Below are positions 2,155-51,568 of a stretch of 64,000 bases of DNA, one piece after another; positions within the stretch are counted from its first letter, which is position 1, and every line of letters starts with the position of its first letter. A model generated the notes under the pieces. That model saw only the letters and a list, made by a program, of their open reading frames with translations. It was not told the DNA's origin and did no database searches. The position numbers and the translations under genes were made by a program. Source of the stretch: Microtetraspora sp. NBRC 13810. GTDB taxonomy: Bacteria > Actinomycetota > Actinomycetes > Streptosporangiales > Streptosporangiaceae. Location: positions 62,001-126,000 of the forward strand of contig NZ_BSRQ01000006.1 of the NCBI RefSeq assembly GCF_030268685.1. Direction: 5' to 3'.

Positions 2155-4253
2155 GTCTGGACACCTGGCGTTCGGTGCTGCTGGGCCGGGCCGCGGACGA
2201 GGTCGTCACCAGGGCACTGGTGCGCGACGTGGAGCTGCCGGGCGGGGCGGGCACCCTGGCCCTGATCACCCTGGACAACGGCTTCGACCACACCCGGCCG
2301 AACACGTTCGGCCCGCACGGCCTGCTCGCGCTGAACGGCGCGCTGGACGGCATCGCCACCCGCACCGACGTGGCCGCCGTCGCGGTGACCGGCAAGCCGT
2401 TCATCTTCGGCGTCGGCGCCGACCTCGACGGCGCGGCGGCGCTGGCCACCCGCGAGGAGGCGGAGGCCGTCGCGGCGCTCGGCCACCACGTCCTGCGGCG
2501 TCTCGGCGAGCTGGGCGTCCCGTCGTTCGCGTTCGTGAACGGCGCGGCGATGGGCGGCGGCCTGGAGGTGGCGCTGCACTGCGACTACCGGACGATCTCC
2601 TCCGGGGTGACCGCGGTCGCGCTGCCCGAGTGCTTCCTCGGGCTGGTGCCCGGCTGGGGCGGCACGCAACTCCTCCCCCGGCTGATCGGCCCCGAGCGCG
2701 CGATCAAGCTGATCATCGAGAATCCGCTCTCCCAGAACCGCATGACCGACGGGGCGGGCGCCCACGCGCTGGGCGTCGCCGACGCGCTGTTCGAGCCGGC
2801 CGACTTCCTGGAGGAGTCGCTGCGCTGGGCGGCCCGGGTGCTGCGCGGCGAGGTCACCGTGACCCGCGAGGACCACACCGCCGCCGACTGGTCGCCGGTC
2901 CTGGAGCAGGCCCGCGCGCTGGTGGACCTCAAGCTGCGCGGCGCCTCGCCGGCGCCGTACCGGGCGCTCGACCTGATCGCCCTGGCCCGTACGGCGGGCC
3001 GCGACGAGGGCTTCGCCGCCGAGGACGCCGCGCTCGCCGACCTGCTCATGGGCGACGAGCTGCGCGCCGGGATCTACTCCTTCAACCTGGTGCAGCGCCG
3101 GGCCAAGCGGCCGGCCGGAGCGCCGGACGCCGCCCTGGCCAGGAAGGTCTCCAAGGTCGGCGTGGTGGGCGCGGGCCTGATGGCCTCGCAGCTCGCCCTG
3201 CTGTTCGCGCGGCGACTGGAGGTGCCCGTCGTGCTGACCGACCTGGACGAGGCGCGTCTCGCCAAGGGCGTCGGCTACGTGCATGACGAGGTGGACCGGC
3301 TGCTGGCCAAGGGCCGGATCTCCGGTGACCAGGCGAGCCGGCTCAAGGGCCTGGTGACGGGCTCGCTGAGCAAGGACGCCTTCGCCGACGCCGACTTCGT
3401 CATCGAGGCGGTGTTCGAGGACCTGGGCGTCAAGCAGAAGGTGTTCGCCGAGGTCGAGGCGGTCGTCTCGGCCGAGTGCGTGCTCGCCACGAACACGTCG
3501 TCGCTGCCGGTGACCGCGATGGCCGCCGGGCTGCGCCATCCGGGCCGGGTGGTGGGTTTCCACTTCTTCAACCCGGTCGCGGTGCTGCCGCTGCTGGAGA
3601 TCGTCAAGGGTGCGGCGACCGACGACGCGACGCTCGCCACGGCCTTCGCCGTGGGCAAGGCGCTGAAGAAGTCGAGCGTGCTGGTGAAGGACGCGCCGGC
3701 GTTCGTGGTCAACCGGCTGCTGACGAGGTTCATGGGCGAGGTGATCGCGGCGGTGGACGAGGGCACCCCGCTGGCGGTCGCCGACCACGCGCTGGACGGG
3801 CTCGGCCTGCCGATGACCCCGTTCACACTGCTCCAGCTCGTCGGGCCGGCGGTCTCGCTGCACGTGGCCGAGACCCTGCACACGGCCTTCCCCGACCGTT
3901 ACGGCGTCTCGGCCAACCTCGCCGCGCTGGTGGCGGCCGGTAAGCCGGGTGTCTACGGCGCCGACTTCGGCATCGACCCCGAGGCGGAGGCGATCTTCGG
4001 CGGCGGCGGGTCGCCGTCGAGCGCCGAGAAGGTCCGCGACCGCGCCCTGAGCGCCCTCGCCGCGGAGATCAAGATCATGCTGGACGAGGGCGTGGTCTCG
4101 GCGGCGCAGGACATCGACCTGTGCATGATCCTCGGCGCCGGCTGGCCGTTCCACCTGGGCGGCGTGACCCCCTACCTGGACCGCACCGGCGTCGCCGAGC
4201 GGGTCAACGGGGCGCGTTTCCTGCCCAGGGGGACGGCCTCCGTCCCCGCCTAG
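2151..4253 (+). CDS. fadB: 3-hydroxyacyl-CoA dehydrogenase / enoyl-CoA hydratase fusion (FadB/FadJ type)
   Basis: A 700-residue bifunctional protein. The N-terminal crotonase domain (about 1-300) has an oxyanion-hole stretch AAMGGGLEVAL and the LPE and GLVPGWGGTQ motifs. A 3-hydroxyacyl-CoA dehydrogenase NAD-binding domain starts at residue 337 with GVVGAGLM and includes FHFFNPV. The C-terminal dehydrogenase domains follow. It should hydrate enoyl-CoA and oxidise the 3-hydroxyacyl product. The reading frame stays open far upstream through the thiolase gene, but the GTG at 2151, overlapping the thiolase TGA, is the natural start. It ends in a 4-base convergent overlap with the permease on the other strand. 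Confidence 0.94.
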   Translation: MSLDTWRSVLLGRAADEVVTRALVRDVELPGGAGTLALITLDNGFDHTRPNTFGPHGLLALNGALDGIATRTDVAAVAVTGKPFIFGVGADLDGAAALATREEAEAVAALGHHVLRRLGELGVPSFAFVNGAAMGGGLEVALHCDYRTISSGVTAVALPECFLGLVPGWGGTQLLPRLIGPERAIKLIIENPLSQNRMTDGAGAHALGVADALFEPADFLEESLRWAARVLRGEVTVTREDHTAADWSPVLEQARALVDLKLRGASPAPYRALDLIALARTAGRDEGFAAEDAALADLLMGDELRAGIYSFNLVQRRAKRPAGAPDAALARKVSKVGVVGAGLMASQLALLFARRLEVPVVLTDLDEARLAKGVGYVHDEVDRLLAKGRISGDQASRLKGLVTGSLSKDAFADADFVIEAVFEDLGVKQKVFAEVEAVVSAECVLATNTSSLPVTAMAAGLRHPGRVVGFHFFNPVAVLPLLEIVKGAATDDATLATAFAVGKALKKSSVLVKDAPAFVVNRLLTRFMGEVIAAVDEGTPLAVADHALDGLGLPMTPFTLLQLVGPAVSLHVAETLHTAFPDRYGVSANLAALVAAGKPGVYGADFGIDPEAEAIFGGGGSPSSAEKVRDRALSALAAEIKIMLDEGVVSAAQDIDLCMILGAGWPFHLGGVTPYLDRTGVAERVNGARFLPRGTASVPA

Positions 4254-5743
4254 CCGACGGGCCGCCTGGCGTCCCCCTGAGCGGGCTCGGGGGGACGCGC
4301 CAGGTGGCTGTGCCTGCGGCCGTAGAGGAAGTAGACGACGACGCCGACGGCCATCCAGGCGAGGAACCGCAGCCAGGTCTCCACCGGCAGGTTGACCATG
4401 AGGTAGGCCGAGGCCAGCACGGACAGGATCGGCACCAGCGGCACCAGCGGGGTCCGGAAGGGGCGCGGCAGTTCCGGACGCGTCCTGCGCAGCAGCACCA
4501 CGGCGATCGAGACGATCACGAACGCGAAGAGCGTGCCGATGTTGACCAGCTCGGCCAGCGCCGACAGCGGGATGAACCCGGCGAGCACGGCGGTGACCAG
4601 GCCGATGATGACGGTGATCCTGGCGGGCGTGCCGTACTTGGGATGCACGGCGGCCAGGCTGCGCGGCAGCAGGCTGTCCCGGCTCATCGCGAAGAAGACC
4701 CGGCTCTGCCCGAGCATCATGATGAGCACGACCGTGGTGAGCCCCGCGATCGCGCCGATGCTGATCACGGTGGCCAGCCACGGCTGCCCCACCGCGCGGA
4801 ACGCGTCGGCGAGCGGCGCCGCGGAGCTGAGCCGCTGGTACGGCTGCATGCCGACCACGACCAGCGAGACCCCCACGTAGAGCGCGGTGCACACGGCCAG
4901 CGAGCCTAGGATGCCGATCGGCATGTCGCGCTGCGGGTTCTTGGTCTCCTCGGCGGCGGTGGCGACGATGTCGAACCCGATGAAGGCGAAGAACACCACG
5001 GCGGCGGCGGAGAAGACGCCCGCGATGCCGTACGCGGTGGGGGTGAGGCCGAAGAGCACCTGGATGAGCGGGGCGCCCAGGCCCTCGACGCTCTGGGTGG
5101 CCTCGGCCGGCGGGATGAACGGGGTGTAGTTCCGCGAGTCGATGAAGAACAGCCCTGCGAAGATCACCAGCAGCACCACGGCGACCTTGACCGTCACGAG
5201 CACGAGGTTGGTCCGCGAGGAGAGCTTGATGCCGGCGACCAGGACGACGGTCAGCAGCAGCACGATGAGCATCGCGGGCAGGTTGAACACCGCCCCCTCC
5301 CCCGCTAGCCCGGGTGGCAGGTGCACCCCCAGCGTGGCCATCAGCGAGGCGAAGTACCCCGACCAGCCGACGGACACCACCGCCGCGCCCAGGGCCAGCT
5401 CCAGGATGAGGTCCCAGCCGATGATCCAGGCGGGGAACTCGCCCAGCGTCGCGTAGGCGAAGGTGTAGGCGGAGCCGGCGACCGGCACGGTGGACGCGAA
5501 CTCCGCGTAGCAGAGGGCGGCGAGCCCGCACGCGACCGCCGCGACCACGAAGGACAGCGCCACGGCCGGGCCCGCGGTGTCCCGGGCGACCCGGCCGGTC
5601 AGCACGAAGATGCCGGTGCCCACGATGACACCGACGCCGAACACGGTGAGATCGAGGGCGCTCAGCCGGCGCCGCAGCCGATGTTCCGGCGCCTCCGTGT
5701 CCTTGATGGTCTGTTCGATGCTTTTGGTGCGGAACATTCCCAC
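4250..5743 (-). CDS. APC-superfamily cationic amino-acid permease
   Basis: A 497-residue inner-membrane transporter of the cationic amino-acid transporter branch of the APC superfamily. Twelve or more hydrophobic segments are evident. The family signature GVGVIVGTGIFVLTG lies in the first membrane helix, with FFAFIGFDIVATAAEE in the middle and RVFFAMSRDSLLP later. The GTG start is chosen because GGAGGG lies six bases upstream; an ATG two codons further in is the alternative. The substrate cannot be fixed from sequence. It lies downstream of dxs on the same strand but with an 80-base gap, so a shared transcript is uncertain. Confidence 0.9.
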   Translation of the reverse strand: MGMFRTKSIEQTIKDTEAPEHRLRRRLSALDLTVFGVGVIVGTGIFVLTGRVARDTAGPAVALSFVVAAVACGLAALCYAEFASTVPVAGSAYTFAYATLGEFPAWIIGWDLILELALGAAVVSVGWSGYFASLMATLGVHLPPGLAGEGAVFNLPAMLIVLLLTVVLVAGIKLSSRTNLVLVTVKVAVVLLVIFAGLFFIDSRNYTPFIPPAEATQSVEGLGAPLIQVLFGLTPTAYGIAGVFSAAAVVFFAFIGFDIVATAAEETKNPQRDMPIGILGSLAVCTALYVGVSLVVVGMQPYQRLSSAAPLADAFRAVGQPWLATVISIGAIAGLTTVVLIMMLGQSRVFFAMSRDSLLPRSLAAVHPKYGTPARITVIIGLVTAVLAGFIPLSALAELVNIGTLFAFVIVSIAVVLLRRTRPELPRPFRTPLVPLVPILSVLASAYLMVNLPVETWLRFLAWMAVGVVVYFLYGRRHSHLARPPEPAQGDARRPVG

Positions 5744-5823
5744 CGTGTGCCCTCCGATCCCCCTGCTACTCCTCCTCTGCTTTCCCCTTCACAAGGACTC
5801 TTACTGCTGGATCGGCCGAACTG

Positions 5824-7731
5824 TCAGTGCGCGGTGGGATGTTCCAGGACGGGGCTGCGCCTGGCGACCGCCTCGGTGATCTCCCGGGCGAGGTCCTGGC
5901 CGGTGAGACCCGCCTCGGAGAGGATCTTGGGCCGCTTGGCGTGGTCCAGGAAGCGCTGCGGGATGCCGTAGGTGCGCACCGGGACGTCCACGTCGGCGTC
6001 GCGGAGCATCCGGGCCACCGCGTCGCCCACGCCGCCGACCCTGCCGTTGTCCTCGACCACCACGACCAGCTTGTGCGCCTGCGCGGCGAGCACCAGGGCC
6101 TCGTCCAGCGGCTTGACCCAGCGGGGGTCCACCACGGTGGCGGAGATGCCCTGCGCGTCGAGCAGGTCGGCGGCCTCCAGGCAGGTCTCGGCCATCGGCC
6201 CCACGGCCACCACGAGCACGTCGGGGTCGCCGGCCCGCAGCACGTCGGCCTCGCCCAGCTTGCCGACGGCCTCCAGCTCGGTCGCGACCGCGCCCTTGGG
6301 GAAGCGGACGACGGTGGGCGCGTCGTCGACCTCGACCGCCTCGGCCAGCAGCTCGCCGAGCCGCGTGGCGTCGCGCGGGACGGCGATGCGCAGGCCCGGC
6401 ACGACCTGGAGGATCGACAGGTCCCACATGCCGTTGTGGCTGGCCCCGTCGTCGCCGGTGACGCCCGCGCGGTCGAGCACGACGGTGACGGGCAGGCGGT
6501 GCAGCGCGACGTCCATCAGGAGCTGGTCGAAGGCGCGGTTGAGGAAGGTGGCGTAGACCGCGACCACCGGGTGCAGGCCGCCGAGGGCCAGGCCGGCGGC
6601 GGAGGTCAGCGCGTGCTGCTCGGCGATGCCGACGTCGTAGATGCGGTCGGGGAAGGTCTCGGCGAAGGGCGCCAGGCCGGTCGGGTGCAGCATCGCGGCG
6701 GTGATCGCCACGATGTCCTGGCGGCGGTGGCCGAGCCGGACGAGCTCCTCGCCGAAGACGTTGGTCCAGCCGTGCGGCGTGGCCCGCTCCTCACCGGTCA
6801 GCGGGTCGAAGGCGCGCGGCGAGTGGAACCGGTCCTCGTCGTGGTTCTCGGCCGGGGAGTAGCCGTGCCCCTTGCGGGTGATCGCGTGCACGATGACCGG
6901 GCCGCGGTAGTCGCGCGCCTTGCGCAGCGCCGCCTCCAGGGCCGCCTCGTCGTGGCCGTCGATCGGGCCCACGTACTTCAGGCCGAGGTCCTCGAACATC
7001 ACCTGCGGGGCGACGATGTCCTTCAGCCCCTTCTTGATGCCGTGCAGCGCCTCGTAGAACGGCGGCCCGACGACGGGGACCTTCGGCACGTTGCCCTTGA
7101 CGAACTCCAGCGCCCCCTCGTACTTCTTGGTCACCCGCAGGGCCGACAGGTGGCTGGCCAGCCCGCCGATCGTCGGGGAGTAGGAGCGGCCGTTGTCGTT
7201 GACCACGATGACCAGCGGCAGGTCCTTGTTGGCGGCGATGTTGTTCAGCGCCTCCCAGGCCATGCCGCCGGTGAGCGCGCCGTCGCCGATCACCGCCACG
7301 ACCGTGCGGCCGGTCTCGCCGCGCAGCTTGTAAGCCTTGGCCATGCCGTCCGCGTAGGACAGCGCGGTGGAGGCGTGCGAGTTCTCGACGAAATCGTGCT
7401 CGGACTCGGCCTGGCTGGGGTAGCCGGACAGGCCGCCCTCCTGCTTCAGGGCCTTGAAGCCCTCGACGCGGCCGGTGAGCATCTTGTGCACGTAAGCCTG
7501 GTGGCCGGTGTCCCAGATGATCGGGTCGCCCGGCGAGTCGAAGACGCGGTGCACGGCGATCGTCAGCTCCACGACCCCCAGGTTGGGACCGAGGTGGCCG
7601 CCGTTCCTGGCGCAGGAGGCGACGAGCAGGTCCCGGATCTCGGCCGCGAGCCTGGGCAGGTCACCCGCCTCCAGCAGCTTGAGATCGTGAGGCCCCCTGA
7701 CCGACTCCAGAAGCCCAGGCCGTTCGCCCAC
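5824..7731 (-). CDS. dxs: 1-deoxy-D-xylulose-5-phosphate synthase
   Basis: Thiamine-diphosphate enzyme that condenses pyruvate with glyceraldehyde-3-phosphate, the first step of the MEP isoprenoid pathway. The N-terminal part has [15 protein letters not shown] and the cofactor-binding GDGALTGG near residue 147. The transketolase-like middle domain carries [17 protein letters not shown], followed by a typical C-terminal domain. The frame is open 27 codons further upstream, but GTG at 7731 has a GAGAGGG ribosome binding site about seven bases away and gives 635 residues, the normal length. No other MEP-pathway gene lies next to it. Confidence 0.96.
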
Positions 7732-7873
7732 GGGATCACCCTCTCTGTTCGACTTTGCACACCTCACCACCGCCCCGAGTGTAGTTGGCCGGAAGCCGCC
7801 CACCCTCGGCATCCCTGAAACGATGATGAAGCTGACCCGTTTTGTTGGCTCTTGTTCTACTCTTTACGCCACT

Positions 7874-8779
7874 ATGATCAGCCGCCTCGTGAGAAGACTG
7901 TGGTCACTGCTCGCCGTGGTGACCGTCTTCTCACTGCTCTGCACGGGCACCGCCGAGGCGCCGGCGTCCACCGCGCCGCCCGCCCCTCCCGCCGCCCAGC
8001 GGGAGGCCGGTCAGGACGCCGGAACCGAGACGGGAACCGGCGTGGACACCGCGCCCGAGCAGGGCCGGCGTCCGGCGCGGGGCAAAGCCTCCGCGACCGC
8101 CAACGCCCTCTACAGGACCGGGCGGCTGCCGCGGCTCCGCTGCGCCCCCGGAGAGATCCTTCCCGGAAGCGCGGCGTCCTACCGGGGGTTCATGAGCCGG
8201 GTCACCGCCTGCCTCAACAGGTCGTGGGGCCGGCAGTTCGCGAAGGCGCGGCTGCCGTTCACCAAACCGCGGCTGCGGTTCGTCACCGGGCAGGTGAGCA
8301 GCCCGTGCGGCAAGTGGCCGACCGGCGCGGGCGGCTACTACTGCTCCGCCAACCGCACCATCTACATCGGGATCACCAAGCGGGTCCTGCGCGAGGGGTT
8401 CGAGCTGGGATCGGCGCAGTTCATGGCGCACGAGTACGCCCACCACGTGCAGACGCTCAGCGGGATCGGGCCCGACTACTACTTCCCCCGGCACGCCTGG
8501 GCCGGCCGCGCCGAGGCGCTCGCCCTGTCCCGGCGCTTCGAGGTGCAGGCCGACTGCATGGGCTCGGCGTTCCTGGGCAGCGTGGCCGGGACCCTGCCGG
8601 TGCGGGACACCGACTGGCGGGGGATGATCGAGTGGACCACGCGGTACGGCGACGAGGCGTGGCCGGCCAACGACCACGGCAAGGGTTCCACCCAGGCATA
8701 TTGGATGGGACGCGGCTTCGAGGCGTGCGCCCCGGGCGCCTGCAACACCTGGACGGCCTCGAAGGCCCGGGTGGCCTGA
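7874..8779 (+). CDS. Secreted neutral zinc metallopeptidase (YpfJ-like)
   Basis: A 301-residue protein with an N-terminal signal or anchor segment (RRLWSLLAVVTVFSLLCTG), a low-complexity Ala/Pro/Gly linker to about residue 75, and a C-terminal zinc peptidase domain. The zinc motif HEYAH is at residues 186-190, and a downstream glutamate in FEVQADCMG fits the third ligand of the family. Four or more cysteines outside the signal suggest disulphides in an exported protein. The frame is open 17 codons further upstream, but the ATG at 7874 gives a conventional signal peptide. Substrate unknown. Confidence 0.82.
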   Translation: MISRLVRRLWSLLAVVTVFSLLCTGTAEAPASTAPPAPPAAQREAGQDAGTETGTGVDTAPEQGRRPARGKASATANALYRTGRLPRLRCAPGEILPGSAASYRGFMSRVTACLNRSWGRQFAKARLPFTKPRLRFVTGQVSSPCGKWPTGAGGYYCSANRTIYIGITKRVLREGFELGSAQFMAHEYAHHVQTLSGIGPDYYFPRHAWAGRAEALALSRRFEVQADCMGSAFLGSVAGTLPVRDTDWRGMIEWTTRYGDEAWPANDHGKGSTQAYWMGRGFEACAPGACNTWTASKARVA

Positions 8780-8792
8780 AAGGGCGGAAGGG

Positions 8793-9995
8793 TCAGATGC
8801 TGACCCGGGCGAGGGCCTCCAGGGGGTCGGCCAGGACGTGTGAGAAGGCCAGCTCGGCGGCGCCCATGAGGGTGGCGTCGTCGCCGAGCAGGGACGTGCG
8901 CAGCCGCAGGTGCTCGCGGGAGGCGGGCAGGGCGTCGGTGGCGAGGCGGCTGCGCACCTGGGCCGCGGAGCCGAGGTAGACCTCGCGCAGCATCCCGCCG
9001 AAGACGACGATCTCCGGGTTGAAGATGTTCACCAGGTTGGCGACGCCGACGCCGAGCCAGTCGCCCACCCTCATGAGCGCCTCCTGGGCGGTGATGTCGC
9101 CCATGTCGGCGGCCTCGACCACGGCGCGCACGGCCTCCTTGCCGACCCGCGTGCCGTACCTCCCGGTCGGCTCCAGCAGGGCCCGCTCCCCCACCTCGGC
9201 CTCCAGGCACCCCCGGGCGCCGCAGCCGCAGGGCCGCCCGCCGGGGTTGACCACCATGTGGCCGACCTCGCCGCCGTAGCCCTGGTGGCCGCCCAGGAGC
9301 CTGCCTTCCGCGATCACCCCGCCGCCGACGCCCACGTCGCCGTGCAGGAAGATCAGGTCGTGGCAGCCGACGCCCAGGCCGCGCGACTGCTCGGCGAGCG
9401 CGGCGAGGTTGGCGTCGTTGCCCACGGCCACCGGCAGGCCGAGGGCGAGCCGGCGGCTCAGCTCCTCCCCGAAGGGGACGACCTCGTGCCCCAGGTTGGG
9501 ATCGAGCCGGACCATGCCGTCGCCCTTGGACACCCTGCCCGAGATCGCCGCGCCGGCTCCGACGCACGTGGTGTCGGGGCGGGTCTTGCGGTGCATCTGC
9601 CGGGCGAAGCCGGCCAGCGCGCCGGTGATCTCGTCCAGCGAGAACTCGCCGCGCCGCCGTACGGCCTCGCGACGGTCGAGGATGACGCCGCCCAGGCCCA
9701 CCCGGGCGGCCACCAGCCGGTCGACCCCCACGTCGAAGGCGAACACGTAGACCTTCGCCGACTCGGGCCGGACGACCAGCGAGGGCCGTCCCGCCCTCCT
9801 GGTCTGCCTGGGCAGCTCCTCGCGGACCAGGCCGGCGGCGGTGAGGTCCGCGGTGAGCGCCATGATCGTGCTGCGGTTGAGCCCCATCCGGCTGGTCAGC
9901 TCGGCCCGCGAGGTCGGCCCGCTCAGGTGGACGTGGCGCAGCAGGGCGCCGAGGTTATGCCGCCGGATCTCCTCTTGGGAGGGGCCTGCGCGCAT
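8793..9995 (-). CDS. ROK-family transcriptional regulator of the adjacent sugar ABC operon
   Basis: A 400-residue ROK repressor. An N-terminal winged helix (about 15-75, TSRAELTSRMGLNRSTIMAL) binds DNA, and a ROK/ASKHA domain follows with the zinc-binding CGCGARGCLE motif and sugar-kinase-like nucleotide-site remnants. ATG 9995 is preceded by CAGGAAA. It is the last gene on the strand after the binding protein, ATPase and permease, 44 bases behind the permease stop. By analogy with XylR-type ROK proteins it probably represses this importer and responds to the imported sugar. That role is inference. Confidence 0.9.
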   Translation of the reverse strand: MRAGPSQEEIRRHNLGALLRHVHLSGPTSRAELTSRMGLNRSTIMALTADLTAAGLVREELPRQTRRAGRPSLVVRPESAKVYVFAFDVGVDRLVAARVGLGGVILDRREAVRRRGEFSLDEITGALAGFARQMHRKTRPDTTCVGAGAAISGRVSKGDGMVRLDPNLGHEVVPFGEELSRRLALGLPVAVGNDANLAALAEQSRGLGVGCHDLIFLHGDVGVGGGVIAEGRLLGGHQGYGGEVGHMVVNPGGRPCGCGARGCLEAEVGERALLEPTGRYGTRVGKEAVRAVVEAADMGDITAQEALMRVGDWLGVGVANLVNIFNPEIVVFGGMLREVYLGSAAQVRSRLATDALPASREHLRLRTSLLGDDATLMGAAELAFSHVLADPLEALARVSI

Positions 9996-10039
9996 GACCG
10001 AGATTTCCTGCCGTTCTGTCGGGGGGGACGAACCCTCGA

Positions 10040-11287
10040 TCACCTTAGACCAGAGGCCGCGGCCCGTTTGCGCAGGAGGGCGTCCACCCCCGCCGCCAGC
10101 AGCAGAACCGATCCGGTGACGATGTACTTCACGCCGGCGCTGTATCCGAGCAGGCCCATGCCGTTCTCGATCACGGCGACCACGGCGCCGCCCAGCACCG
10201 CGTCCAGCACCCGGCCCTTGCCGCCGAAGAGGCTGGTGCCGCCGATGACCGCGGCGCCGACGGCGTAGAGCAGGACGGTGCTGCCGCCGGTGTTGGGGTC
10301 CACGGACGCGGCCCGCGACGCGGCGATGATGCCGCCCACCGCCGCCATGCCGGAGCAGATGACGAACGCGCTGATCCGGATCCGGTCCACCGCGATGCCC
10401 GCGCGCCGCGCGGCCTCGGCGTTCCCGCCGACCGCGTACAGGTGCCGGCCGAAGGCGGTACGGCGGAGCACGAACGTCCACACGAGCAGCAGCACGATCA
10501 CGATCGGCACCACGACCGGCATGCCCTGGAGCGAGGTGAGCGCCGGGTTGCGGCTGCGCTCCAGGTTGAGCGCGTAGACGGCCAGCCCGCTGATGACGGC
10601 GAGGCCGCCGACGCGCAGGGCGATCAGTGAGAGCGGGTCGGCGAGCAGGCCGCGGGCGACGCGCTTGCGGGCCCGCAGCAGTTGCAGGATCGCGTAGCCG
10701 CCGACGCCGACGGCGAAGACCGCCCAGCCGATGACCGGCGGCAAATTGTTGTTGCTGATCGCGAGGATCACCTGGTCGCGCACCGGGACGTTGGTGCCCT
10801 GGTCGACCAGGAGCAGGAGGAGTCCCTGGAACCCGAGGAAGGCGGCCAGGGTGACCACGAAGGACGGTATGCCCACCTTGGCGACGAGCGTGCCGAGGGC
10901 GGTGCCGATCAGGACGCCGGTGACGATCGCGGCGACGACGGCGACGTACCAGGGCAGGCCGTGGTCGGCCAGGGTCACGGCCAGCACGGCCGCGCAGACG
11001 CCGCTGGCGAACCCGGCGGACAGGTCGATCTCGCCGATCAGCAGCACGAAGACCAGGCCCATCGCGATGACGATGATGCCGGCGCCCTGCGTGAACAGGT
11101 TGGCGAAGTTGATCGGGGTGAAGAAGGAGGGCCGCAGGGCGGTGAAGACCGTGCAGAGCACGACCAGCCCGATCACGGCGGGCAGCGCGCCCATGTCCCC
11201 GCCGCGTACCCGCTCGATGTAGCCGCGGGCGTTCTTGCCGATGGACGGCGCGGAGGTCGTCCGATCGGGGGTCATGGTTGCGCTCAT
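10040..11287 (-). CDS. Sugar ABC transporter permease (XylH/RbsC type)
   Basis: A 415-residue inner-membrane permease of the monosaccharide-importer class with about ten hydrophobic segments. Recognisable are LLIGEIDLSAGFASGVCAAV and, near the C-terminus, AVIGGTSLFGGKGRVLDAVLGG, the conserved coupling region of this family. The ATG at 11287 overlaps the ATPase stop by four bases (ATGA), so translation is coupled. It should form the membrane channel with the ATPase gene upstream and the lipoprotein beyond it. The size and the insertion around residues 200-240 resemble xylose-type XylH proteins more than ribose permeases. Confidence 0.93.
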   Translation of the reverse strand: MSATMTPDRTTSAPSIGKNARGYIERVRGGDMGALPAVIGLVVLCTVFTALRPSFFTPINFANLFTQGAGIIVIAMGLVFVLLIGEIDLSAGFASGVCAAVLAVTLADHGLPWYVAVVAAIVTGVLIGTALGTLVAKVGIPSFVVTLAAFLGFQGLLLLLVDQGTNVPVRDQVILAISNNNLPPVIGWAVFAVGVGGYAILQLLRARKRVARGLLADPLSLIALRVGGLAVISGLAVYALNLERSRNPALTSLQGMPVVVPIVIVLLLVWTFVLRRTAFGRHLYAVGGNAEAARRAGIAVDRIRISAFVICSGMAAVGGIIAASRAASVDPNTGGSTVLLYAVGAAVIGGTSLFGGKGRVLDAVLGGAVVAVIENGMGLLGYSAGVKYIVTGSVLLLAAGVDALLRKRAAASGLR

Positions 11288-12054
11288 GACGCGACTCCGC
11301 TGCCGTTGTGAAGGCCGAGTTCCCCGCTGCGGCCGCTGGTGATGAGTTCGACGACCTGGGCGTGCGTGACGTCGGCGGTCTTGACCTGTGCGGCCATCCT
11401 GCCCAGGTAGAGTGCCGCGATCCGGTCCGAGACCGCGAACACGTCGTTCATGTTGTGCGAGATCAGCACGACCGCCAGGCCGTTGTCGGCGAGCCGGCGG
11501 ACCAGTTCGAGCACCTGGCTGGTCTGCGCCACGCCGAGCGCGGCGGTCGGCTCGTCCAGGATCACGACCTTGCTGTTCCACAGCACGGCCTTGGCGATGG
11601 CGACGGTCTGCCGCTGCCCGCCGGACAGGCTGGAGACGAGCTGGCGGATCGACTTGACGGTCCGCACGGACAGGGAGGCGAGGGTCTCCTCGGCCAGCTT
11701 CTCCATCGAGTCCTCGTCCAGGACGAGACCGCGCTTGCGCTCCCTGCCGAGGAACATGTTCTGCACGATGTCCAGGTTGTCGCAGAGCGCGAGGTCCTGG
11801 TAAACGATCTCGATTCCGAGTTCGGCGGCGTCGCGGGGTCCGTTCACCTGGACGGGCTTGCCGTCGAAGTAGAACTGGCCGGCGTCGATCGGGTAGATCC
11901 CGCCGGCGCACTTGACGAGCGTCGACTTGCCCGCGCCGTTGTCGCCCACCAGGGCGGTCACCTCGCCCGCCTGCGCGGAGAAGTTGACGTCGTGGAGGAC
12001 CTGTACAGGGCCGAAACTCTTGTCGATCCCGCGTAGCTCAAGTACGGGGGCCAT
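11284..12054 (-). CDS. Sugar ABC transporter ATP-binding protein (single-domain XylG type)
   Basis: A 256-residue ABC ATPase. It has Walker A GDNGAGKST, Q-loop IVYQDLAL, signature SLSGGQRQ, Walker B VVILDEPTAAL and a switch histidine in LISHNM. It has one nucleotide-binding domain, unlike the duplicated RbsA/XylG proteins of enterobacteria, so it should act as a homodimer. The start is ATG 12054, with GGAAGAGGAG upstream; the frame is open 39 codons further but those run back through the intergenic hairpin. It lies between the binding-protein gene and the permease gene. Confidence 0.94.
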   Translation of the reverse strand: MAPVLELRGIDKSFGPVQVLHDVNFSAQAGEVTALVGDNGAGKSTLVKCAGGIYPIDAGQFYFDGKPVQVNGPRDAAELGIEIVYQDLALCDNLDIVQNMFLGRERKRGLVLDEDSMEKLAEETLASLSVRTVKSIRQLVSSLSGGQRQTVAIAKAVLWNSKVVILDEPTAALGVAQTSQVLELVRRLADNGLAVVLISHNMNDVFAVSDRIAALYLGRMAAQVKTADVTHAQVVELITSGRSGELGLHNGSGVAS

Positions 12055-45179: not shown

Positions 45180-45989
45180 TCAGGCGTCGCGCTCGGGATC
45201 CAGCGTGACCAGCAGATCGTGCAGCTCCTCGAACAGTCCGGGAGCCGCGGCCAGGGTCATGTCCGGGTTGTGCGGCCTGCCGTTCAGGCCACCGACCCGC
45301 GCGCCGGCCTCGGCCGCCACCAGGCCGCCGGCCGCGTGGTCCCAGTACTCCGTGCCGCGCTCGTAGTAGCCGTCCACCCGGCCCGCCGCGACCGAGCACA
45401 GGTCGGCCGCCGCCGAGCCGCTCCGCCGGATGTCGCGGACCACGGGCAGCACCCCGGCGAGCACCTCGGCCTGGACGACGCGCCGCGCGGCTGAGTAGCC
45501 GAACCCGGTGGCGATCAGCGCCCGGGACAGCGGCACTCCCGTGTTGCAGCGCAGCCGCTCGCCGCCCAGCCAGGCGCCGCCGCCGAGCCAGGCGGTGAAG
45601 AGCTCGCCGCGCGGCACGACGTTGACCGCGCCGGCGACGACGGTCCCCGCCACCTCGACGGCGACGCTGACCGCCCACTCCGGCAGGCCGTACAGGAAGT
45701 TGACCGTGCCGTCGATGGGGTCGACGATCCAGCGGACGTCGCCGCCGCCGGTCGCGCCGCCCTCCTCGCCGAGGACGGCGTCGCCGGGCCTGGCGGTCCT
45801 GATCCGGTCCCGGACCAGCTCCTCCGCCGCCCGGTCGAGCGCGGTGACCACGTCGGTGGGGCTGGACTTCGTCTGCACCACCTCCGGGCGCGCGGACCGC
45901 TTCTGGCGGAGCATGTCGCCCGCCTCGCGGGCGATGTCCGCGGCGAGGACGGCGAACTCCCGCGGCTCCGGCGTCGCGCCGCCGGTCAC
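45180..45989 (-). CDS. Inositol monophosphatase family protein
   Basis: A 269-residue lithium-sensitive-type phosphatase. It has the metal-binding GEEGG, the signature VDPIDGTVNFLYGLPEW and the C-terminal YWDHAAGGLVAAEAGA. It may dephosphorylate inositol-1-phosphate or related sugar phosphates. GTG 45989 overlaps by four bases (GTGA) the stop of the native S9-peptidase reading frame, whose last codons remain just upstream. This shows that the phosphatase was translationally coupled to the peptidase before the mobile element separated them. A GTG eight codons upstream (46013) is the less likely start. Confidence 0.9.
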   Translation of the reverse strand: MTGGATPEPREFAVLAADIAREAGDMLRQKRSARPEVVQTKSSPTDVVTALDRAAEELVRDRIRTARPGDAVLGEEGGATGGGDVRWIVDPIDGTVNFLYGLPEWAVSVAVEVAGTVVAGAVNVVPRGELFTAWLGGGAWLGGERLRCNTGVPLSRALIATGFGYSAARRVVQAEVLAGVLPVVRDIRRSGSAAADLCSVAAGRVDGYYERGTEYWDHAAGGLVAAEAGARVGGLNGRPHNPDMTLAAAPGLFEELHDLLVTLDPERDA

Positions 45990-46054
45990 GCCAGGGACTC
46001 CGGCCGCTGCCACTCCCGCCCGAGCACATGCTGGGCGAGGAAGGCGAGGATGGT
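45986..46054 (-). pseudogene. Severed native 3' end of the S9 peptidase gene
   Basis: About 22 codons ending LAFLAQHVLGREWQRP then ESLA and stop. In my recollection this matches the usual C-terminus of actinobacterial S9 peptidases, and it continues in frame from the VVAWYETV stretch now 3.6 kb away. It is cut off from its gene by the serine-recombinase element and has no start codon of its own. Confidence 0.85.
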
Positions 46055-46056
46055 CC
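46040..46056. other. Left attachment-site core (attL)
   Basis: GAAGGCgAGGAtGGTC, matching the right core at all but two positions, placed where the host peptidase codons for F-A-L break off. The recombinase ATG begins 27 bases further, and a -10-like TACACT (46071-46076) lies six bases before it, so the recombinase message is probably leaderless. Confidence 0.75.
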
Positions 46057-46082
46057 CCTTTCGGTAGTGGTACACTTGATTC

Positions 46083-47570
46083 ATGATCAAAGCTGCCTCA
46101 TATTCACGTCGGTCCGATGCACGGGGTAAGCGATTCGATGAACGTTCCGTAGAAGAACAAGACGAGCTTAACTCAAGAGCCGCAAGCACTAATGGTTGGG
46201 ACCTAAGCCCTGACCGCATGTTCCGTGACAACAACATCAGCGCATCTCGGTACTCAACAAAAGAACGCCCCGACTGGAGACGGTTAGAGCAAACACTAGA
46301 GTCGCAGGTCATAGACGTACTCATCGTTTATGAGACGTCTCGTGCATGGCGAAAGATGCACGAGTGGACGGCACTAGTCGAACTCTGCGCCTTCAATAAA
46401 GCTCGCATCCACGTAACCGCAGACAATCGCACATACGATCCCAACGATGACCGCGCTTGGACCACGCTTATAGAGGATGGCCTAGACAGCGAGAAGGAAA
46501 GCCGGAAGATATCCAAGCGGGTAAGAAGGGCGATGGACGCTAACAAGCAGAATGGCAAGCCACACTCAAGCCCTGCATACGGCTACCGGATCGAACTCGA
46601 CCCGAACGACCACACTAAAAAGATCCGCGTACCTGTACCCGAGCAAGTTCCCATAGTTGGGGAGGTGATTGAGCGTGTTGCATCCTCGGATCCGCTCATC
46701 GCCATAGCCAAAGACCTTAACTCACGAGGTATCCCTAGCCCCTCAGTAGCTCAAGGACTTAAGCCACACCCCAGATCCAAGGGACCGGCACTATGGTCGC
46801 CTGCCATGCTAAGGCGCATCTGCAAGAACCCTGTCTATATCGGCAAGCGAGAGGCAGACGGCATCCTAGTAAATGGCACGTGGCCAGCGATCGTGGATGA
46901 GGAGCTGTTTTGGAAGGCAAACAACGTCCTCGCAGACCCCAGCCGCAAAACCACTAAGCCTGGTCGCGTTAAGTACCTACTAGCGTTCCACGGAACGTGC
47001 GACGTATGCGGTTCCTACCTCGCTCGCATGGGGGGAAGGGAAGTCAACCGCTACCGGTGCAACGGGCCTAAGGGATGCGTCACTATCCGCATGGATTGGG
47101 TAGACCTCTTCATCGGTGAGCTAGCCTGCCACCGGCTCGCCAAGAAGGACATCTACGAAATTCTTGCAAAGAACGATGATAACCAGAAGAACCTAACGAC
47201 AGAACTGGAGTCGCTTAGGGCAGAACACAAGGAAGCCCTACACCTTAGAGCAAAGAAGAAGATATCACTGATCGCTCTGAGTCAGGAAGAGGAAAGGATT
47301 CTCCCCCGCGTAGCAGAGCTTGAGGCGGCTCTACGGCCCGTTACCCTTCCCAAAGTGCTCGAAGACCTCATGAGAGACGCCAAGGGCGATCTAGCCACGA
47401 TCAGAGCTAGATGGAAGGCACTAGCGATACCGGCGCAACGCGATGTCCTACGGAGTCTCTTTAAGAGCATCAGCATCAGACCTACAAAGACCATGGGCCA
47501 GCACAAGACAGAAGCTCAGATAGAGAGCATGCTCCGTGAACGTATCGCCCATGAGTGGCACAACGAATAG
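46083..47570 (+). CDS. Large serine recombinase (integrase)
   Basis: A 495-residue site-specific recombinase. The N-terminal resolvase domain has catalytic Ser11 in YSRRS, SVEEQ, and the VIDVLIVYETSRAWRK strand/arginine region. The recombinase domain (about 160-270, with AYGYRI, GIPSPS, WSPAMLRRICKNPVYIG) is followed by a zinc ribbon (CDVCG...RCNGPKGC) and a coiled coil of about 60 residues. These are the hallmarks of phage-type integrases that insert DNA unidirectionally at att sites. Lower GC and different codon use from its neighbours mark it as acquired. Its promoter lies against attL. Confidence 0.95.
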   Translation: MIKAASYSRRSDARGKRFDERSVEEQDELNSRAASTNGWDLSPDRMFRDNNISASRYSTKERPDWRRLEQTLESQVIDVLIVYETSRAWRKMHEWTALVELCAFNKARIHVTADNRTYDPNDDRAWTTLIEDGLDSEKESRKISKRVRRAMDANKQNGKPHSSPAYGYRIELDPNDHTKKIRVPVPEQVPIVGEVIERVASSDPLIAIAKDLNSRGIPSPSVAQGLKPHPRSKGPALWSPAMLRRICKNPVYIGKREADGILVNGTWPAIVDEELFWKANNVLADPSRKTTKPGRVKYLLAFHGTCDVCGSYLARMGGREVNRYRCNGPKGCVTIRMDWVDLFIGELACHRLAKKDIYEILAKNDDNQKNLTTELESLRAEHKEALHLRAKKKISLIALSQEEERILPRVAELEAALRPVTLPKVLEDLMRDAKGDLATIRARWKALAIPAQRDVLRSLFKSISIRPTKTMGQHKTEAQIESMLRERIAHEWHNE

Positions 47571-47636
47571 CCACTAGACACCATCCCATATACACAGGGA
47601 CGCTGAGGGCCGCGTGGACGGGCTACGCTGGCCGGT

Positions 47637-48848
47637 ATGGAGCACATAGGCGACCGTCTCGCCCGCTTGCGGCGGCTCGCTGACCTGACCCAGGAGGAGC
47701 TAGCGGAACGCTCCGGCGTATCGGTCGATGTGGCGCGGAAGCTGGAACAACGACGCAAACACAGCGCTAGATTGCCCACATTGCATGGGCTTGCGAAAGG
47801 GCTCGGGACAGAGGTCACCGCACTCATTGGCGATCCGCCCGCTGTCCCGTCGAACGGGGATGCGGAGTCGCCGCAACTGGTCGCCCTGAGACGCGCCATC
47901 ATGCCACCCTTGTTCGCCCCGCCTCCCGAACGCAACGCGGCAGAGTCGCTGTCGTTGCCGTTGCTTCGGGCTGAGATCTCCGATGGCTGGACGCTCTATC
48001 ACAACGCGGAGTTCGACCGGTTGGCCGATGTGCTTCCGGGGATGATCGCGGACGCTCGGCTTTTCGCTGCGATTGGTTCTGCGGAGCATCGCGCGCAGGG
48101 CGAAGGAAGTCTGAGCAAGGCGCTACAACTGGCCGGTCATCTCGCCATCCGGCTAGGGAAAACCGATCTCGCACTGTCGAGCCTTGAGCGCGCCGCGACG
48201 GCAGCTCAGAACTCGGGCGACCTCTTGCTTGCTCCGATGGTTTACGGGTCCGTGGCGTGGGCTTACCAACGTCAGAACCGACTCGGTGATGCTGAGCACC
48301 TTGCGGAGCGGGCGGCCGACACAGTGGAGCACGAGACCGGCATGAAGACCGCTGCCGGTCTGCGGGTATGGGGTGGCCTGGTTATGTCAGCGGCGACGAG
48401 CGCCGCGCGATCGGGAAGCTACGACCGAGCAACCGAGATGATGACCACGGCCGAACAGTGGGCTAAACGGTTGCCCAGCCTCCCGCCGGTCGAGGACAGC
48501 CGCGCGGTATCGGTGTTCAACCGTTCATCGGTTCGGATTGAGCGGGTCAGGCTCGCGGTACAGCACGAACGTCCTGATGAAGCTCTTGGCCTTGCCAAGG
48601 GCCTACGGCTAAGCGCCGACGTTCCGCCGTCATGGCGTACATGGTTCTTGCTGGACGTGGCGCGGGCGTATACCGATATCGGCGACGCTTTCGGTGCTGT
48701 CAGGACTTTAGAGGCTTTGAGGCGTGCCGCTCCGGGATGGATGCGGCATCACGTTCTTGCGGTCGCCATCATCCAAGACTTGTACTCGGGTCCGGTTCAG
48801 CCCCCAGGGCTGCGCAAGCTTGCTGAGTATGTGGGGGTACGTCCCTAG
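47637..48848 (+). CDS. XRE-family regulator with TPR-like C-terminal domain
   Basis: A 403-residue protein. The N-terminal helix-turn-helix (about 5-65) reads GDRLARLRRLADLTQEELAERSGVSVDVARKLEQ; residues 115-400 are helical repeats (e.g. ALSSLERAATAAQNSGDL, GDAEHLAERAADTVEHETG) like a TPR signalling domain. The ATG has a -10-like TACGCT seven bases upstream and no ribosome binding site, so it may be leaderless. It sits between the recombinase and two small genes, with GGGACG half-sites on both sides. It is probably the element's own regulator. Confidence 0.9.
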   Translation: MEHIGDRLARLRRLADLTQEELAERSGVSVDVARKLEQRRKHSARLPTLHGLAKGLGTEVTALIGDPPAVPSNGDAESPQLVALRRAIMPPLFAPPPERNAAESLSLPLLRAEISDGWTLYHNAEFDRLADVLPGMIADARLFAAIGSAEHRAQGEGSLSKALQLAGHLAIRLGKTDLALSSLERAATAAQNSGDLLLAPMVYGSVAWAYQRQNRLGDAEHLAERAADTVEHETGMKTAAGLRVWGGLVMSAATSAARSGSYDRATEMMTTAEQWAKRLPSLPPVEDSRAVSVFNRSSVRIERVRLAVQHERPDEALGLAKGLRLSADVPPSWRTWFLLDVARAYTDIGDAFGAVRTLEALRRAAPGWMRHHVLAVAIIQDLYSGPVQPPGLRKLAEYVGVRP

Positions 48849-48873
48849 TCTTGTTCGTAGCGTGCCAAAAGTG

Positions 48874-48888
48874 GGACGTTCCGTCCCT
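48874..48888. promoter_or_regulatory. Palindromic operator candidate GGGACG-TTC-CGTCCC
   Basis: A perfect 6+3+6 inverted repeat between the XRE gene and the small-gene pair. A single CGTCCC occurs at the end of the XRE gene (48841-48846) and a single GGGACG upstream of it (47597-47602). It is a likely target for the XRE protein, controlling the small genes. Confidence 0.6.
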
Positions 48889-48922
48889 GCTGCGAACGGC
48901 TCTCGCCCGCTTCGCTGGAACC

Positions 48923-49144
48923 ATGCAGCACTCCCACGGCAGCCGGACTATGACCGATGATCGAAATTGGAGTGTCCGGCGCGCGGTCAGCTATGGCGAA
49001 CTCCGGCTGGAGCTGATCACGGACGGCGAAAATTGGGCGATCCGCAAGAGCGGGAATCTGCTTTGCGAGGGTTATCACCAAGAGATCGCCTATGTCTGGG
49101 ATGTGCTTACGACGGCGATCTTTGGGCCGGAAAGCCCGTCATGA
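48923..49144 (+). CDS. Small element-encoded protein A
   Basis: 73 residues from ATG 48923, or 64 from ATG 48950; neither has a ribosome binding site. The core WSVRRAVSYGELRLELITDG followed by ENWAIRKSG looks like a small beta-rich domain. It overlaps the next gene by four bases (ATGA), so the two are coupled. It shares the pattern VS(Y/F)...EL...G.(N/Q)WA.R with protein B and is probably its paralogue. I know no family for it. Confidence 0.65.
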   Translation: MQHSHGSRTMTDDRNWSVRRAVSYGELRLELITDGENWAIRKSGNLLCEGYHQEIAYVWDVLTTAIFGPESPS

Positions 49145-49389
49145 ACCAAGACGTGACGCAGCTCGAATGGTCGGCGTACTACCAGCGCAGCCCACGATGT
49201 CGCGTGCTTGATCAGGTCTCGTTCTCCGAGGGCGTAGAGCTTGTGCTGATCGCCGAGGGCGGACAGTGGGCCGCTCGCCGCACAACGTCAGTTGGCTTCC
49301 GGGTGGTCCGGCGTGAGGAGACGGCACGGGGCATCCCACGTAGGAAGAGGGAAGCATGGGACTGGCTGACCGGCCGCAACGTGGAGTAG
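49141..49389 (+). CDS. Small element-encoded protein B
   Basis: 82 residues. A core VSFSEGVELVLIAEGGQWAA with RRTTSVGFRVVR parallels protein A, followed by a basic C-terminal part (RGIPRRKREAWDWLTGR) that could bind nucleic acid. Translation is coupled to protein A by an ATGA overlap. It is the last gene of the element. Function unknown; a recombination directionality factor, a toxin/antitoxin-like partner or an XRE effector are all possible. Confidence 0.65.
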   Translation: MNQDVTQLEWSAYYQRSPRCRVLDQVSFSEGVELVLIAEGGQWAARRTTSVGFRVVRREETARGIPRRKREAWDWLTGRNVE

Positions 49390-49440
49390 AGGCATCCGAC
49401 CAACGGTGTGAGGCGTGTCGTACGGGTCCGGCCGGATGAT

Positions 49441-49478
49441 GTGAGCCCCCGGGAGATGAACCTCCTCCCGGGGCTCAC
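49441..49478. terminator. Terminator hairpin near the right end of the element
   Basis: A 14-bp GTGAGCCCC/GGGAG stem with one bulged C and a 9-base loop. It lies 51 bases after protein B and 53 bases beyond the peptidase stop on the other strand, so it can end both transcripts. The element thus gives the interrupted peptidase gene a new terminator as well as a new C-terminus. Confidence 0.75.
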
Positions 49479-49531
49479 TCATGATCGAAAGCCCTCAGGA
49501 GACCCCTGGGGGTCGCTGGCGTGCCTCGTGT

Positions 49532-51568
49532 CTAGTCAGTGTTCGATCTCTCTGGGTCAAGACTTCCCAGGTCAACGAGGCCAGAGAACTTGGGCGGCTC
49601 AAAGTTGGGCTTGAGGTACTGATACAAGAAGGCAAGGACGGTCTCATACCAGGCCACGACGTTCCCCGGCTTGAGCACCCAGTGGTTCTCGTCGGGGAAG
49701 TAGAGGAACTTCGACTCCACCGAGGAGCGCCGGAGGTCCCACCACAGCCGCAGCGCCTCGCCGATCGGCACCCGGTAGTCGCGGTCGCCGTGGATCACCA
49801 GCATCGGCGTGGTGATCGCGTCCACCGACCGGTGCGGGGACAGCGTGTCGTACAGCGCCGAGCCGGGCTCGCCGAACTCCCGCTGCCAGTAGGACTGCAT
49901 GTCGGTGGTGCCCGCGAACTGGTCGAGGTGCCACAGCGAGGCGTGCGTGACGATCGCCTTGAACCTGTCGGTGTGCCCGGCGATCCAGTTGGCCATGTAG
50001 CCGCCGAAGGAGCCGCCCATCGCGCCGGTCCTGGTCTCGTCGATCTCCGGCCTGGCCACCGCCGCGTCGGTGATCGCCATCAGGTCGGCGTGCGTGCGCG
50101 GCCCCCAGTTCCGCCAGCCGCGCTCGATCATGGCGTTCCCGTACCCGGTGGACAGGCACGGATCGGGCAGCAGTACGGCGTAGCCGTGCTCGGCCATGAT
50201 CCACGGGTTCCACCGCCACGACCAGTCGTTCCAGCTCGCGACGGGGCCGCCGTGCACCCACAGCAGGAACGGCGCCGGGTTGTCGGCGGAGGCGCCCTCG
50301 GGCAGCACCAGCCAGCCCCTGATCTCGGCGCCGTCGTCGGCGGTGGCGGTGACCTCGGTGAGCGTGCCGGGAATGTCCAGCCGGGGCGCGGGAGAGGGCA
50401 GGTCCTCGATCCGCCCGTCCACCGCGGAGATCCGCACCGGGGTGTGGGCCAGCGCGATGCCGCTGCGCAGGGCGTAGAGCGACCGGCCGTCGGGCGCCGG
50501 GCAGACCTCCAGGTAGGAGGCGTCGTCGGCGGTGAGGCGCACCGGGTCGCCGCCGGCGGCGGGCACCCGGAAGACCGGGCGGCGGCCGAGGTGGTCGGCG
50601 GTCACGAAAAGGGTGCCCGAGTCGGGGGCCCAGGCGACGGAGGAGGGCCGGATCTCGGCGACTTCCCTGCCCTGCCCGGTCTCCAGGTCGACGAGCCACA
50701 GCCACGCGCGCGGGATCCGGTCGGCGCCGCCGTGCAGCTCGCGGGCGCAGGCGACGTGACGGCCGTCGGGTGAGACGGCGACCGGGCCGCCGTAGTCGTA
50801 GCCGTCCTCGGAGGCGAGGACCCGCCTGGTCCCGGCCTCGGCGCCGGCCCCCGCGTCGATCGCGACGAGGTCCACCCGCAGCTCGCCGCCGGGGAGCGGC
50901 ACCGCCCAGGTGGTGACGACGGTGGAGCCGTCGGGGGTGACGTCGAAGGACGCGTTGTCGAGCGCGCGGCCGGGCTCCGGCGTCAGGTCCCTGACGCCCT
51001 CCAGCCGCTCGCCGCCGATCGTCGCGGCGAACAGCCGGGTCTGCCCGGGGCCGAGGTCGTGGTCCCAGTACCGCACCGGGTGCGACTCGTGCAGGATCGC
51101 GCTGATCCCGGCGTCCTTGCGGGCCTTGCGGCGCTCCGCCTCGTCCGCCTCGTCGCCCGGCAGCACCTCGGCGGCGTAGACGGCGGTGCCGCCGCCGGTC
51201 CGCACGGCGGACACGCCGCCCGGCCTGTTCGCGACCTGCCGCGCCTCGCCGCCCCGCGCGGGCAGCAGCCACAGCGCGGGCACCTCGTCGTCGGCGTCCT
51301 TGGCCGAGGGGTCGGGCCTGCGCGAGACGAACAGCAGGTCGCCGCCCTCGGTGAACTCCGCCCCGCCCTCCCCCTTAGCCGAGCGGGTCAGGCGGGCGGC
51401 CTCGCGGCCCGCGTCGAGCGGCACGTCCCACACGGAGGTGCCGTAGCTCTTGCCGTCGGGATTCAGGGCCTGCACCACGCCGGCCAGGCGGGTCCCGTCC
51501 GCCGAGAGCCGCAGGGACATCAACCGGGGAACACCGACGAAATCACGAACGTCCTTGAACAGAGTCAC
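49532..51568 (-). CDS. S9-family prolyl-oligopeptidase/acylaminoacyl-peptidase, C-terminus replaced by mobile element
   Basis: A 678-residue serine peptidase with an N-terminal beta-propeller (about 1-400) and a C-terminal alpha/beta-hydrolase domain. The nucleophile is Ser520 in GGSFGGYMANW, the Asp is in HGDRDYRVP, and His629 is in DENHWVLKPGN. It hydrolyses short peptides in the cytoplasm. All catalytic residues are encoded upstream of the insertion. After TVLAF the native 17-residue tail is replaced by about 31 element-encoded residues (LYQYLKPNFEPPKFSG...). The helix pattern LAFLxQxL is kept, so the enzyme may well remain functional. Confidence 0.93.
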   Translation of the reverse strand: MTLFKDVRDFVGVPRLMSLRLSADGTRLAGVVQALNPDGKSYGTSVWDVPLDAGREAARLTRSAKGEGGAEFTEGGDLLFVSRRPDPSAKDADDEVPALWLLPARGGEARQVANRPGGVSAVRTGGGTAVYAAEVLPGDEADEAERRKARKDAGISAILHESHPVRYWDHDLGPGQTRLFAATIGGERLEGVRDLTPEPGRALDNASFDVTPDGSTVVTTWAVPLPGGELRVDLVAIDAGAGAEAGTRRVLASEDGYDYGGPVAVSPDGRHVACARELHGGADRIPRAWLWLVDLETGQGREVAEIRPSSVAWAPDSGTLFVTADHLGRRPVFRVPAAGGDPVRLTADDASYLEVCPAPDGRSLYALRSGIALAHTPVRISAVDGRIEDLPSPAPRLDIPGTLTEVTATADDGAEIRGWLVLPEGASADNPAPFLLWVHGGPVASWNDWSWRWNPWIMAEHGYAVLLPDPCLSTGYGNAMIERGWRNWGPRTHADLMAITDAAVARPEIDETRTGAMGGSFGGYMANWIAGHTDRFKAIVTHASLWHLDQFAGTTDMQSYWQREFGEPGSALYDTLSPHRSVDAITTPMLVIHGDRDYRVPIGEALRLWWDLRRSSVESKFLYFPDENHWVLKPGNVVAWYETVLAFLYQYLKPNFEPPKFSGLVDLGSLDPERSNTD
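49628..49644. other. Right attachment-site core (attR)
   Basis: GAAGGCaAGGAcGGTC, read in the plus direction, is the counterpart of attL. On the minus strand it encodes the T-V-L-A-F codons at which the host peptidase frame passes into element sequence. The exact crossover dinucleotide cannot be fixed without an empty site. Confidence 0.75.

Follow-up and report, generated by a model that had tools for sequence, protein, structure and literature searches.

The C-terminus of an S9 peptidase gene of Microtetraspora sp. NBRC 13810 appears to have been exchanged by a mobile element that brought a complete substitute gene end with it. The gene lies in a 64,000-nucleotide stretch of DNA (the window), and we give a probability of roughly 0.87 to the reading that a serine integrase, using about 16 bp of shared att sequence, performed here the type of gene-end replacement described for e14 in icd. 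According to this reading, the integrase would insert the element at a coding attB near the 3' end of the S9 gene, the host would then make a full-length S9 protein whose last helical turn and tail are encoded by the element, and excision assisted by a directionality factor would return the gene to its native form.

The element and its attachment sites

The element in the window measures 3,588 bp from core to core and is flanked by two Phe codons close to the 3' end of the S9 gene. The GC content changes from 0.70-0.77 outside to 0.54-0.65 inside the element. The features of the region are as follows:

45180..45989, minus strand: inositol monophosphatase family gene (PF00459), the neighbour of S9 at empty sites
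45986..46039, minus strand: displaced native S9 tail LAQHVLGREWQRPESLA and stop, of a type identical to that in empty-site relatives
46040..46055, minus strand: phosphatase-side att core (TTC Phe codon 46040-46042 and shared sequence)
46083..47570, plus strand: large serine recombinase (integrase), 495 aa (PF00239 and PF07508; phrog_95 integrase)
47637..48848, plus strand: XRE-type HTH regulator with TPR, 403 aa (PF13560/PF01381; strong match to phage family phrog_5823)
48851..49144, plus strand: small ORF, start uncertain, no family match
49141..49389, plus strand: small ORF, 82 aa, no family match
49441..49478, minus strand: strong GC-rich hairpin after the replacement tail, a probable terminator without T run
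49532..49627, minus strand: replacement C-terminal tail, 31 codons LYQYLKPNFEPPKFSGLVDLGSLDPERSNTD and stop, element-encoded, with homologous tails in two further carriers (G162, G249) and in genus g27
49628..49643, minus strand: S9-side att core (TTC Phe codon 49628-49630 and shared sequence)
49532..51568, minus strand: chimeric S9 peptidase gene (PF00326 and relatives), host body up to the Phe codon at 49628-49630, then the element-encoded tail

The earlier note, made from the letters alone, had called this a serine-recombinase element, and the protein encoded between the two junctions indeed has the marks of a large serine integrase: a Resolvase domain followed by a Recombinase domain, a catalytic serine and a cysteine ribbon, with S11 and Cys 306, 309, 326 and 332 invariant across five relatives. 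Its gene starts 40 bp from the core, and the window genome holds no second close copy of it. Genes for replication, transfer or packaging hijack and a directionality factor were not recognised in the window element; the lack of a recognisable directionality factor and of replication and transfer genes suggests that the element is now possibly immobile. Neither of the other two S9-integrated elements (G162 and G249) was found to have the XRE-TPR regulator (47637-48848).

The two junctions (46040-46055 and 49628-49643) have 14 of 16 bases in common, GAAGGC[G/A]AGGA[T/C]GGTC, which agrees with the shared GAAGGC-AGGA-GGTC read previously. By comparing both junctions of three insertions (the window, G162 and G249), the core could be narrowed to the TTC Phe codon. 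The crossover is best placed on this codon, because no other placement keeps the conserved host VLAF in all three insertions; a crossover further upstream would, in G249, give a Pro in the reconstructed host gene. Both attB and attP were reconstructed for all three insertions, and attB lies, as had been proposed, within the coding end of the gene; its position there is the TTC codon. The reconstructed attP consists of a short gene-like core followed by a complete in-frame substitute end, a stop and a hairpin, and over the 15 bp preceding the core, attP agrees with the host codons at 11-12 of 15 positions, matches of a kind that are almost absent elsewhere in the elements.

The exchanged C-terminus of the S9 peptidase

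In the window, the S9 frame reads ...WYETVLAF followed by LYQYLKPNFEPPKFSGLVDLGSLDPERSNTD and a stop; the host part ends at the Phe, and the frame thus leaves host sequence after TVLAF and closes 31 codons later, exactly as first described. Sequence and fold match S9 acyl-peptide hydrolases and carboxypeptidases, and the presumed catalytic residues, Ser520 (GGSFGG), Asp (GDRDYR) and His629 (ENHW), are invariant in 24 relatives and all lie upstream of the junction. AlphaFold predicts the same final helix for both versions, at residues 634-651 when the replacement tail is used and at 632-649 when the native one is; the last turn of this helix contains the junction. The suggestion of a substituted C-terminal helix therefore has to be narrowed: the exchanged part is the last turn of that helix together with an extension of about 27 residues, not the whole helix. 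The confidence of the tail model is moderate to low, with a pLDDT of about 60 at residues 661-670 and lower values at the end. A shuffle test detected no similarity between the element tail and the native tail that it replaces, and it is for this reason that we infer, rather than observe, a functional equivalence of the two. Judged from the sequence, the chimeric S9 probably stays full-length and presumably active, and the insertion would cost the enzyme little.

The hairpin at 49441-49478 is near-perfect and GC-rich, and similar hairpins of the CCCCTGAG type stand 3' of the tails in G162 and G249. The claim that the element carries its own replacement C-terminus is upheld by the homologous tails in three carriers; the terminator claimed along with it is a probable one, a strong hairpin alone, as no T-run terminator was called after the replacement tail.

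Empty sites in relatives and the displaced native tail

We searched 251 genomes of the family, in which the genus of the window is represented by this genome alone, and many genera proved to have an S9 orthologue, at about 56-78% identity. In the 33 parsed native-tail genomes and in three more, S9 is one continuous gene with a tail of the type LAQHVLGxxWxRPxSL, and in the 33 parsed loci the phosphatase directly follows it. In the closest relative (G063, 77-78% identical), the S9 gene ends in LAQHVLGEDWRRPESLS and overlaps the phosphatase by ATGA. The empty site predicted earlier (a continuous S9 gene with native tail, then the phosphatase, with overlap of the stop) thus exists in relatives, the stop overlap being seen in G063. 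Apparent read-through extensions of the tail match in G101, G016 and G203 were rejected, being native tails followed by unrelated sequence.

The native end has not been lost from the window. A Phe codon followed by LAQHVLGREWQRPESLA and a stop is found at 45986-46042 on the minus strand, the same strand as S9 and 3.6 kb from the S9 junction, and this fragment, taken in the earlier note for the resumed S9 tail, is of the same type as the tails of the empty-site relatives. Its TGA still overlaps the GTG start of the phosphatase by 4 bp (GTGA).

Independent insertions and probable selection on the substitute tail

A family-wide search retrieved two close relatives of the recombinase, at 75% identity in G249 and at 73% in Sphaerisporangium perillae (G162). 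Both elements (3,377 bp core to core in G162, 8,903 bp in G249) occupy the same S9 codon in the same orientation, with the native tail displaced to the phosphatase side, and because two other genomes share this arrangement at the same codon, a chance arrangement is excluded. The in-frame tails after Leu, YQHLKPQFGPPQLSGLVDLGSLAPKAE in G162 and YRYLKPNFEPPTFSGLVDLGELDPNRH in G249, are homologous to the window tail. In a tree of the S9 body, from which the tail was left out, every carrier clusters with sequences from its own lineage that have the native tail, and this tail is also retained in the genus-mates of G162 and G249. By these sequence comparisons, it is the element, not the gene, that the tail accompanies, and the three insertions are independent.

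The element tails are 28-31 residues long and in frame in all three carriers. Among them, the synonymous versus nonsynonymous differences per site are 0.49/0.09, 0.40/0.19 and 0.33/0.24, a comparison of 25 codons that is supportive but not conclusive alone, and of the six frames, that of S9 shows the highest conservation (22, 19 and 17 of 25 residues). The substitute tail has therefore probably been kept under selection at the protein level.

The G249 element (L065, 2056-10959) encodes a small GntR-like regulator, a capsid protein, and HNH and primase-type proteins. The capsid protein is 44-48% identical over 70% to capsids of Gordonia phages, and terminase or tail genes were not seen in this element.

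A genus with a homologous tail but no element

When the last 55 residues were used as query, hits to the tail were confined to the three carriers and to genus g27, where all five genomes have it. The S9 loci of this genus (L106-L110) have Thr-Phe, not Ala-Phe, at the junction, the phosphatase follows after a short spacer instead of the 4-bp overlap, and no recombinase lies near S9. The alignment of the element tails with the natural g27 tails scored above every one of 5,000 shuffles, and the substitute tail was probably acquired from the S9 gene of a related actinobacterium. The earlier note had named such a finding, the tail in relatives without the recombinase, as evidence against its reading, and g27 is literally that case; the reading is not overturned by it, because the native tail is what the closest relatives and the genus-mates of all three carriers possess, so that in each carrier it was the insertion that brought about the swap. 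What g27 does show is that such a tail can be the ordinary end of the gene in a different genus.

In which direction the tail moved between g27 and the elements has to be judged from about 25 residues. The tail might have arisen in g27 as an ordinary gene end and been captured there by the element, a proposal to which we assign slightly less than an even chance: the g27 tails form one conserved clade with host-like GC-rich codons, and no trace of a recombinase is left near them, but g27 is, in the S9-body tree, a single clade nested among native-tail lineages, so that it must have undergone the same swap at the same codon, and the element is a known agent of that swap. It is also conceivable, at odds that we likewise put somewhat short of even, that the element was once present in an ancestor of g27 and that its tail alone has remained, the element-encoded C-terminus thereby becoming the normal ending throughout the genus. 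Such an insertion followed by loss needs no new type of event: g27 is surrounded by native tails, and precisely this swap is what the element carries out. If it took place, elements that replace gene ends would be a route for the permanent exchange of C-termini, and g27 in any case poses a testable question, i.e., whether exchanged C-termini left by mobile elements become permanent parts of enzymes.

Consequences for the phosphatase

The insertion places 3.6 kb, a strong hairpin and an oppositely reading recombinase gene between S9 and the phosphatase. The phosphatase thereby loses the translational coupling that the overlap provides. The peptidase itself is probably spared. After insertion, the phosphatase would have to be expressed from another promoter, and the native tail next to its gene would no longer be translated; a search for sigma-70-like promoters in 45900-49700 gave none, a result that says little in this bacterial group. 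The separation of the phosphatase from its operon could be taken to mean that S9 or the phosphatase is switched on and off through the coming and going of the element, as a form of host control. We regard this as very improbable, because S9 is completed rather than interrupted and because different species are occupied sporadically, which does not resemble a conserved developmental element.

More distant recombinases and the origin of the tail

The recombinase in G142 is 57% related to that of the window and belongs to an element of about 9 kb (L063, about 2790-11790) inside a TRAP permease gene. The permease frame stops there after no more than about a dozen unrelated codons, the rest of it is found beyond the element, and no homologous replacement tail is present at this site. 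In Nonomuraea sp. SYSU D8015, a recombinase that is 53% related lies in a prophage beside an ABC permease frame, which runs for only about 95 residues before the element (one element end was examined). Since these distant relatives interrupt permease frames, and since the TRAP site has no homologous tail, the replacement tail was most likely gained specifically in the S9-targeting clade. The G142 element also carries capsid-like, HNH and primase-type genes, and the likeness of its gene set to that of G249 suggests a family of capsid-carrying satellites or prophage remnants. Neither IMG/VR nor plasmids nor phage records contained a close relative of the recombinase (best phage 33%), so that this attP is not known from any free phage; a pattern search of IMG/VR for the tail gave no match.

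That the more distant G142 element leaves just a few unrelated codons at its target, and that the element tail is unlike the native one, could suggest that the tail in the window is likewise a chance read-out of element DNA, functionless at the end of a truncated S9. The homologous in-frame tails with synonymous bias in three carriers and the homology to natural S9 tails of g27 largely refute this idea and make it scarcely credible. Least tenable is the proposal that the YQYLKPNFEPPKF tail is the original one and that the LAQHVLG fragment came with the element or from another copy: a homologous tail does exist in g27 without any element, but in G063, as in the genus-mates of G162 and G249, the phosphatase comes directly after the native tail, and the stranded fragment retains its overlap with the phosphatase start.

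Comparison with known systems

The use of attP sequence to replace the end of a gene is an established strategy (PMC10111431). For coding genes it has been described for e14 in icd of Escherichia coli (PMC6379469, PMC11148124) and, with tyrosine integrases, for dnaJ2 in bifidobacteria (PMC6109161) and for MAB_2979 in M. abscessus, where C-terminal residues are replaced (PMC8092301). With these precedents, the remark in the earlier note that a coding-end equivalent is much less familiar than tRNA 3' ends was overstated; what stands is that a serine integrase doing so is unusual. A coding attB is common among serine integrases. Those described in M. abscessus disrupt the gene concerned (PMC8092301), a paper on Streptomyces tools notes that the target is restored by few of them (PMC12924846), in a large survey of serine recombinases the target genes count as disrupted (PMC10083194), and our searches of open-access text gave no serine-integrase case with a homologous replacement tail. 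What is new and unusual here is thus a serine integrase performing the replacement-end strategy, and doing so three times, together with a genus in which the exchanged tail persists in the absence of the element.

The strategy known from tyrosine integrases (tRNA genes, icd, dnaJ2) is hereby extended to a serine integrase, in a version with very little shared att sequence, the entire substitute tail being present in the element as coding sequence of its own. The three insertions, together with the related recombinases that interrupt their targets, offer a natural comparison of sparing and disrupting elements. A further candidate use of the recombinase and its att sites is as an integration system for Streptosporangiaceae, in which the target enzyme is expected to stay intact.

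The closest parallel in arrangement is that of e14 and lambdoid phages in icd, where insertion also occurs near a coding 3' end, the element supplies the new end and the original one, icdC, is displaced to the other side (PMC6379469, PMC11148124, PMC10111431). The icd replacement, however, comprises about 165 bp that are nearly identical to the original and depends on a tyrosine-type integrase, whereas in the window element the integrase is of the serine type, near-identity extends over about 16 bp and the tail has no detectable similarity to the displaced one. Extended nucleotide identity between the replacement and the displaced ends is absent here, stopping after about 16 bp; such identity is a feature of icd and is not demanded by the general description of the strategy (PMC10111431). 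The prophages at dnaJ2 in Bifidobacterium and at attB-8 (MAB_2979) in M. abscessus are likewise actinobacterial, sit at a coding 3' end and reconstruct the gene or replace its C-terminal residues (PMC6109161, PMC8092301), but they use tyrosine integrases, MAB_2979 swaps 7 for 8 residues, and the dnaJ2 core is 35 bp long. Bxb1 (groEL1), the M. abscessus sites attB-7, -9 and -17 and the Streptomyces tools share with the window element a large serine recombinase, a short core and a coding attB; in contrast to it, their targets are disrupted or mostly inactivated and no homologous tail is described (PMC8092301, PMC12924846). The PICI-like phage satellites of actinobacteria, finally, are also small integrated elements, some of them with serine integrases (PMC10654092), but some possess capsid or replication genes, as does the relative in G249, whereas the window element has none.
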